20,547 nt of DNA. Source: a virus. Where the stretch lies: positions 1 to 20,547 of IMG/VR virus record IMGVR_UViG_3300047557_002631. One strand, 5' to 3'. The notes beneath the pieces were generated by a model. The model searched no databases and was not told the DNA's origin. It saw only the letters and a program-made list of their open reading frames with translations. The position numbers and the translations under genes were made by a program. Shown here one piece after another: positions 18,129 through 20,547 of this stretch (positions are counted from its first letter, which is position 1; each line of letters starts with the position of its first letter).

Positions 18129-19007
18129 ATGGATAAGGCGGGCATCTACACAGACATCCCATTGACCGAATATGTCGGCGATCCAGCGCCTGAGCCGTCA
18201 TTAAACGCCAGCATCGCCACCACGTTATTGACGGCGACACCGGCCCATGCACGGCTGCAGCATCCGCGATTGAACCCACAACAGGACCGTGAAGAAAGCA
18301 GCCGGTTAGACCTCGGCACGATTGCGCATGGGATCTTGCTGGAGGGCGACAGTTCCCGCGTGGTGGTGATCGACGCGGACGACTGGCGCAAGAAGGAAAC
18401 GAAGGAGCAGCGGGACGAGGCGAGGGCGGCTGGCAAGCTGCCGATCCTTAAGGCCGATCATGCCACGGTGCTGGAAATGGTCAAGGCGGCGGAAGGCTAC
18501 ATCTCCTCAAGCGAGATCGCTGCCGACTTCCAAGCCGCCATTCCAGAACAAACCTTGATCTGGCAAGAGGCCGGAATCTGGCTGCGCTGCCGACCCGACA
18601 AAGCCACGCCAGATTGGCGCGTGGTGTTCGATTACAAGACCTGTGCGGGCACGGCGCACCCTGCCGTGTGGGGCAAGTCGTCCATGGTGCGGTACGGCTA
18701 CGACATCCAAGCCGCGATCAACTTGCGCGGCGTGAAGGCACTGACGAAGGCCAAGCGGACAACGTTTGTCTTTCTGGTGCAGGAGATCGAGCCGCCGTAT
18801 GTGCTGTCCATTGTGAGCCTCTCGCCAGAATGGCTCCAGCTGGCTGACGACAAGCTGCGTGTCGCCATGTCGATTTGGCAGGGCTGCACCCGGAAGAATG
18901 AGTGGCCTGGCTACCCATCACGCATCGCCTACGTGGAACCACCGGCCTTCGCGTCGATGGATTGGGACGCCTGTTTACCGGCAATTGATGCAGAAGATTT
19001 TATCTAA
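18129..19007 (+). CDS. PD-(D/E)XK exonuclease, RecE/YqaJ-type
   Basis: 292 residues from ATG at 18129 (GGGGGAAG upstream); a GTG at 18108 would overlap the previous gene. RecE-type markers: SLNASIATTLL...TPAHA (residues about 25-42), LDLGTIAHGILLEG with H67, catalytic RCRPD (D157) and FDYK (D168, K170), then YGYDIQAAINL (Y-x-x-Q). RecE-type enzymes degrade the 5' strand of duplex ends, leaving a 3' single strand for annealing or invasion. It sits directly before a Sak4-like ATPase, forming a phage recombination pair. No fused additional domain. Confidence 0.85.
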   Translation: MDKAGIYTDIPLTEYVGDPAPEPSLNASIATTLLTATPAHARLQHPRLNPQQDREESSRLDLGTIAHGILLEGDSSRVVVIDADDWRKKETKEQRDEARAAGKLPILKADHATVLEMVKAAEGYISSSEIAADFQAAIPEQTLIWQEAGIWLRCRPDKATPDWRVVFDYKTCAGTAHPAVWGKSSMVRYGYDIQAAINLRGVKALTKAKRTTFVFLVQEIEPPYVLSIVSLSPEWLQLADDKLRVAMSIWQGCTRKNEWPGYPSRIAYVEPPAFASMDWDACLPAIDAEDFI

Positions 19008-20116: not shown

Positions 20117-20124
20117 GGGTGAGC

Positions 20125-20547
20125 ATGGCGCAGAAATTTCTGTCCATTAAGAACTTTGAGAAGTACCAAAAGACCAAAACGAAGGAAGGCACTCGCCCTT
20201 GGGTCAAGTTATGGAAGTCTCTGTTAGGGGATGCTGAGTTCATGAAGCTCGATCCGACGTACCGATTTATCTATGTCGGGCTCATACTTTTAGCCGACGA
20301 TTGCGACAATCGGATATACGCGGACTCTACATACCTCAGACAAAGGCTCTACATGACACATACAGAAGGCATACGCGGCACATACATTGGGCATACACAA
20401 CTAGACCTAAAGCCTTTGTATCGTTCAGGTTTCTTGGAGACATCAAATCTGAGCAGGGTGCTCTCAGAGAAGAGGAGAGAAGAGGAGAGAAGAGGAGAGA
20501 GAGAGGCGGCGCAAGCGCCTGACCCTCCCCCTGTTGTGTCTCTACCA
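20125..20547 (+). CDS. Replication initiation protein, N-terminal part (truncated by window end)
   Basis: 141 residues seen; the frame is open to the last base. The start follows an AGGGGTGAG ribosome site. SIKNFEKYQKTKT..TRPWVKLWKSLLGDAEFMKLDPTYRFIYVGLILLADDCDNRIY is the winged-helix N terminus of phage replisome-organiser or replication proteins (pattern 'KNF..yQhYK.R.PPWiKly..ll.D.ef..L.......l..l..LA...g...'). Residues after about 110 are a highly charged linker (EKRREEERRGEREAAQAP). These proteins bind the phage origin and load the helicase. Two DNA-level repeats lie within the coding region (20325-20400 and 20466-20506). Confidence 0.75.
   Translation, partial: MAQKFLSIKNFEKYQKTKTKEGTRPWVKLWKSLLGDAEFMKLDPTYRFIYVGLILLADDCDNRIYADSTYLRQRLYMTHTEGIRGTYIGHTQLDLKPLYRSGFLETSNLSRVLSEKRREEERRGEREAAQAPDPPPVVSLP
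20357..20400 (+). repeat. Four 11-bp-phased CATAC iterons (two 22-bp units)
   Basis: CATAC occurs at 20359, 20370, 20381 and 20392, exactly 11 bp apart, with preceding base alternating A, G, A, G. The two 22-bp units 20357-20378 and 20379-20400 match at 16 of 22 positions. CTCTACAT at 20325 and 20347 is also 22 bp apart. Eleven is not a multiple of three, so the repeat does not come from a peptide repeat. Iterons phased by a helical turn are typical of initiator binding sites. Confidence 0.65.
20466..20506 (+). repeat. 41-nt pure-purine tract with 10-bp tandem repeat
   Basis: Positions 20466-20506 contain only A and G. AGAGGAGAGA repeats three times in tandem (20471-20500) with partial copies on both sides. 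The unit length is not a multiple of three although it is in coding sequence, giving an Arg/Glu-rich linker. Confidence 0.8.

Follow-up and report, generated by a model that had tools for sequence, protein, structure and literature searches.

The window, meaning the whole stretch of DNA that was analysed, is an entire IMG/VR record of 20,547 bp and represents a phage fragment with tail, internal virion protein and integrase genes. Its last gene, on the plus strand at 20125..20547, starts with GTG at 20119 or ATG at 20125 and is cut off by the contig end; an exonuclease VIII-like gene and an AAA ATPase gene lie upstream of it. The product matched PHROG 26426 (phrog_26426), "replication protein", with an E value of 5e-4, and this family was also matched by 39 of 39 aligned relatives. 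Going by annotation names, replication-initiation C-terminal families were matched in 19 of 39 family members, and some members matched PHROG 186, "DnaD-like helicase loader". The gene next after the initiator encodes a DnaC-like loader in Iodobacter phiPLPE and a replicative helicase in Cylindrospermopsis Cr-LKS3, where the gene order is lambda-like (cI, this initiator as "putative replication protein O", helicase gene, NinB). These matches and neighbours bear out the original prediction that the product looks like a replication initiator, and by homology the gene, which holds an array of CATAC words, is that of a phage replication initiator. No family match was obtained for the window protein in Pfam or NCBIfam, and searches of the initiator family yielded no homology to lambda O. 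The RepA_N domain (Pfam) was absent from the window protein and the family, the sole family match being one spurious RPN7.

The part of the protein encoded in the window consists of a predicted N-terminal DNA-binding-type domain and a charged linker, and the C-terminal helicase-loading module would lie off the contig. In the closest relative (L002, 72% protein identity), the gene is complete and encodes 250 aa, and the repeat array and the purine-rich tract described below are found in its 5' half, as had been expected from the truncated gene. Helices and beta elements in the AF2 secondary structure of the N-terminal domain are compatible with a winged helix; Foldseek gave no significant match to a solved winged helix in the PDB, and a PDB sequence search returned weak ribosomal L19 matches of no use. 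The L002 model contains a low-confidence linker at residues 115-125, which is encoded by the tract. The C-terminal module of L002 is of replication-initiation or primosomal type and differs from that of another relative, L003, which is weakly DnaT-like.

The CATAC array and the purine tract

The candidate iteron array spans 20348..20402 on the plus strand and is built of 11-bp units, with CATAC cores starting at 20359, 20370, 20381 and 20392 and an in-phase TAC at 20350. The exact 11-bp spacing of four CATAC words was thus confirmed. Since the C of these words falls at codon positions 1, 3, 2 and 1, so that all three positions are occupied, the repeats are repeats of DNA and not of a peptide. 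CATAC is not palindromic, and the units have no internal inverted repeat of the kind seen in lambda iterons. An extra CATAC at 20330..20334 (plus strand) is out of phase with the array, and its role is doubtful. The 22-bp higher-order unit that had also been proposed exists in only two copies (20325-20346 and 20347-20368), which are identical at 16 of 22 positions, and the unit is weak.

Apart from the purine tract, the array is the sole fourfold 5-mer array with a period of 8-40 in the 20.5-kb window, and 0.0017 fourfold 5-mer arrays of any word and any period from 7 to 40 would be expected in a random window of the same composition. With the protein held fixed and the gene's own codons shuffled 3000 times, some fourfold 5-mer array appeared in 167 cases (~6%), and 6 of 3000 uniform synonymous draws also gave one. 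Because the chance with a fixed protein exceeds that in random DNA, the window alone is suggestive and not decisive; in isolation the CATAC array is moderately improbable, and the case rests on comparison with relatives.

After a gap of 69 bp from the last CATAC, in line with the predicted distance of about 65 bp, a T-free tract of 41 nt extends over 20466-20506, purine throughout on the plus, coding strand. It is composed of near-repeats of the 10-bp unit GAGAAGAGGA, specifies a charged linker (EKRREEERRGERE) and is the only purine or pyrimidine run of at least 15 nt in the window. All five of its Arg codons are AGR, compared with 30 AGR and 230 CGN codons in the other genes of the contig, and shuffles of the gene's own codons attained the tract length in 10%. 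Between array and tract lies a plus-strand spacer of 63 bp (20403..20465), equal in length in L002, and no repeats were found in it in the window. The tract had been described as easily melted, for which its composition gives no support: with a GC content of 51% it is not obviously easy to melt, the array has 45% GC and the spacer 46%, and neither tract nor spacer is AT-rich. Another T-free purine-rich stretch (18390-18430, 41 nt with single C's) was noticed in the exonuclease-like gene, with no adjoining array noticed.

Close relatives and the 33-bp difference

In the protein tree, the window and L002 form one clade with an SH-aLRT value of 99. L002 keeps three of the CATAC words and has AATAC as the third, all in phase, which amounts to 1 changed letter in 20 core letters, and it carries the T-free tract AGAGACAGAGGCAGAGACAGAGGAGAGACAGAG. 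Mismatches between window and L002 are fewer in the array (6/53) than in the rest of the gene (74/292), which was weakly significant in a nucleotide test (p 0.03); for the same pair, the array showed no significant conservation of synonymous codons (p 0.43).

The two nearest other relatives, L003 and L008, share 40% protein identity and have no array at the CATAC site. From a common starting residue, both have an interval of 28 residues, compared with 39 in the window and L002, and the difference of 11 codons, or 33 bp, corresponds to three iterons in frame and coincides with the CATAC array. The insertion encoded by the array maps to residues 81-90 of the N-terminal domain, which are modelled with low confidence (mean pLDDT 59), and the array is located upstream of the linker. 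A coding gene can accommodate a change in iteron number in this way, as 11-bp units are added in threes and the reading frame is therefore kept. Homologues without CATAC had been named as evidence against an origin; L003 and L008 are such homologues, but both are devoid of the entire 33-bp insertion, and in the majority of the distant homologues the 11-bp phase is occupied by a different word.

Among about 115 homologues, CATAC was found in this gene only in the window and L002. No further CATAC relatives were detected in 396 Nitrospirota genomes, beyond the already known and distant L027, or in an additional viral scan, and a plasmid collection gave no match. Among related replication genes, where a search for the CATAC array had been suggested, L002 carries it and most of the distant homologues use different words. 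CATAC was also rejected as a general iteron word, as four copies at 11 bp occurred in 43 viral stretches, of which only the contig of L002 belongs to the initiator family. The others are mostly plain tandem repeats by eye, and no recognisable initiator ORF over the array was seen in the 18 that were examined further. In these more than 40 viral contigs (L130-L172), some diverged units lie in apparently intergenic DNA (L155, L159 and L160) and could be iterons of unrelated replicons.

Comparison across the initiator family

The 115 genes of the homologue set were non-identical and came from bacterial genomes, from contigs of viruses and from named phages, the last including Vibrio phiV208, Iodobacter phiPLPE, Xanthomonas PBR31 and Cylindrospermopsis Cr-LKS3. 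The distant homologues keep the 11-bp phase with other words: most use GCTAGCA, ten genes that essentially form one clade use GATATCA, and there are single-gene words such as GTCTAGA in L094 and GTATAGA in L034. The word tracks the protein tree, with 19 changes needed for six word groups compared with a shuffled mean of 34.6. In most distant homologues, the array directly adjoins a T-free AGAG-rich tract, whereas 63 bp separate the two in the window, and a profile anchored on the tract places GCTAGCA-like words at -41, -30, -19 and -8. Several genes have additional GCTAGC clusters further upstream (nt 119, 130 and 162). In one gene, the GCTAGCA array is accompanied by an 11-bp array of another kind, with five copies of CCGTTCCCGAA (L013 1650-1726).

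These observations bear on the possibility that repeat expansion produced the CATAC array incidentally and that the functional sites of the window are unrecognised ones nearer the tract. This might be argued from the repeat-free spacer, as the array adjoins the tract in other clades, from CATAC arrays elsewhere that arise as plain tandem repeats, and from the similar arrays obtained in ~6% of own-codon shuffles. It is nevertheless unlikely, as L002 keeps three CATAC words exactly and has a single changed letter in the remaining one, the interval in L003 and L008 is shorter by exactly 33 bp, and the upstream GCTAGC clusters place such sites away from the tract in other homologues as well.

Period-specific signals were compared with those in codon shuffles that preserve the protein. 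In 93 genes, the mean z was 2.07 at period 11 and 1.11 at period 22, and about 0 at 11 other non-triplet periods; a thinned set of 39 dissimilar genes gave 2.17 and 1.28, and 38 flanking ORFs showed no signal (-0.20 and -0.01). For codon statistics, linkers were picked by amino-acid content alone, because picking tracts by DNA content would be circular. In these protein-defined linkers, Arg was encoded by AGR in a ratio of 151:9, Thr by ACA in 147:13 and Glu by GAG in 315:53; the remainder of the genes gave 266:725, 129:410 and 502:495, respectively. Each of the three reading frames is used to translate the tract, by 65, 18 and 6 genes.

Many proteins have linkers rich in E, R, K and T, and the tract resembles slippage sequence (AGAGAC and AGAGGA repeats), so that a charged linker together with slippage-prone simple sequence might have produced the pattern as a by-product with no DNA function. 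Such an origin of the pattern is highly improbable and, by these comparisons, is already contradicted at the family level: it conflicts with the choice of Arg, Thr, Glu and Gly codons in the protein-defined linkers, with the three reading frames of the tract and with a period-11 excess over protein-preserving shuffles that is absent in flanking ORFs. The element is real at the DNA level. The constraint had been attributed to DNA instead of codon periodicity in the window, and the use of three codon positions and the family-wide period-11 excess agree with this; judged from the aligned genes, both the 11-bp array and the T-free tract recur family-wide and are constrained on DNA and not on protein.

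Searches with DNA words alone led back mostly to the same gene family, with the reservation that the contigs in both scans may be redundant. Three GATATC words at 11 bp were found in at least 120 viral stretches, and among the matches listed 102 of 120 lie in the initiator family and 98 of these 102 have the tract downstream. For three GCTAGC words at 11 bp, 88 of 120 among the at least 120 matches listed belong to the initiator family, 76 with the tract, and in at least 6 of the remaining matches listed the domain is encoded at this locus on the opposite strand. All 3 GATATC occurrences in PBR31 (39,980 bp) and both occurrences in DC33 (39,048 bp) fall in the initiator gene, 11 bp apart. The Limnohabitans phage DC33 (L126, L175; PQ492659) is filed under Inoviridae, which looks wrong because of its 39-kb genome and this initiator family.

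As the window is a fragment, cumulative GC skew was assessed in four complete relatives. In phiV208 and PBR31 the minimum is no more than about 2 kb away from the gene, as would be anticipated, but it lies elsewhere in DC33 and Cr-LKS3. GC skew was rejected as an origin locator, being inconsistent across these relatives and confounded with transcription direction.

The candidate origin and known systems

Taken together, the stretch at 20348-20506 most likely constitutes the replication origin of the phage, embedded in its own initiator gene, and this placement is strongly supported by comparison with relatives. The N-terminal domain might bind the iterons, one 11-bp unit per helical turn, which would line up the protomers on one face of the DNA. 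The initiator-iteron complex could then open the strand-asymmetric tract, perhaps aided by transcription through the gene, which would leave purine-rich RNA on the pyrimidine template strand. One strand, T-free or A-free, would thereby become the landing site for the C-terminal helicase-loading module or a partner loader, and the helicase would be brought by that module or by a neighbouring loader (DnaC-like in phiPLPE). In the window, where the array precedes the tract by 63 bp, an in-frame 33-bp gain of three iterons may have enlarged a loop of the DNA-binding domain, whose coding sequence contains the array.

Origins in initiator genes have been described before. In lambda and Stx phages (P27, 933W), the origin lies in the middle of gene O, whose product binds at least four repeats there, flanked on one side by a distinct sequence; lambda iterons are imperfect inverted repeats of ~19 bp, followed by an AT-rich region, and extra iterons in Stx phages lengthen the protein in frame, with two iterons equalling 13 residues (PMC7466680). 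The suggested likeness to the lambda type thus holds for the array inside the initiator gene with its neighbouring strand-asymmetric tract, and likewise for an in-frame iteron gain that lengthens the protein. It does not extend to the units, which measure 11 bp here and ~19 bp in lambda, or to the T-free tract, which has a GC content of ~50% in place of an AT-rich region.

In the plasmid pSK41, Rep binds four Rep boxes central in its own gene. The segment that contains ori codes for a linker, which is dispensable and joins a winged-helix DNA-binding domain at the N-terminus to a DnaD-like domain at the C-terminus (PMC5703833). The split of roles proposed here between the N-terminal and C-terminal parts of the initiator is the one known for pSK41 Rep; the tract encodes the L002 linker, and the CATAC array lies further upstream in the N-terminal domain. 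Unlike pSK41, the family lacks a RepA_N match and carries 11-bp words and an AGAG tract where the plasmid has Rep boxes and A+T-rich tracts; the pSK41 type belongs to Firmicute plasmids, whereas the family occurs mostly in proteobacterial phages and prophages. For the tract only, an analogy may be drawn to oriC of Bacillus subtilis, where a strand-specific repeated motif (DnaA-trios or DnaD recognition element) beside double-strand initiator sites is proposed to direct helicase loading, and where DnaD offers a precedent for recognition of a single strand next to the origin (PMC10201434). That origin is a DnaA-dependent chromosome origin, and its motifs are TnnT and trios compared with AGAG here.

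Iteron-type sites can also serve autoregulation and copy control in plasmids (review PMC5703833), and the array lies within the operon of its presumed binding protein. It might therefore act as an operator or copy-control site for the initiator's own operon, or in copy counting, with the true origin elsewhere. This is quite unlikely, as the array sits inside the gene and not at a promoter, is regularly paired with a T-free tract (the 98 of 102 family members among the matches listed) that would be superfluous for an operator, and has counterparts within the genes of lambda and pSK41 that serve as origins (PMC5703833, PMC7466680).

An origin in the initiator gene is a known kind of system, of which this is most probably a variant, and no description of this origin family was found in open-licence papers. 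On balance, though with considerable reservation, the initiator family appears to represent a large undescribed class of phage origins, which would combine one-turn iterons, a word that switches between clades and a T-free tract as a strand-specific helicase-loading site without AT-rich melting DNA; the window would be a variant with three iterons (33 bp) gained in frame. If this is true, an 11-bp array with a T-free tract in an initiator gene could serve as a sequence rule to locate origins in many uncultured phages and prophages. The words GCTAGCA, GATATCA and CATAC and those of single genes would provide natural initiator-iteron pairs for learning how such proteins recognise DNA, and the tract would be a testable case of origin opening at strand-asymmetric DNA that is not AT-rich.

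Tandem DNA repeats within replication-type coding sequences were also seen in the DUF1376 type (MR13, Vibrio 1.183.O) and in JBD68 gp54, but these have 7-bp or 22-bp units, dissimilar N-terminal sequences and no AGAG tract. Two DUF1376-type replication proteins (L417 569-1363 and L423 503-1468) have 7-bp AACCAnn tandem arrays in the linker (peptide NHKPLT..NQEP), and a Vibrio phage record annotates a "CRISPR spacer" inside a DUF1376-type gene, possibly by misreading of the repeats. The replication-type gene of Pseudomonas phage JBD68 (L418 530-1366) holds a 22-bp array of ACGGGGTGCAACnnACGACGTA-like units.
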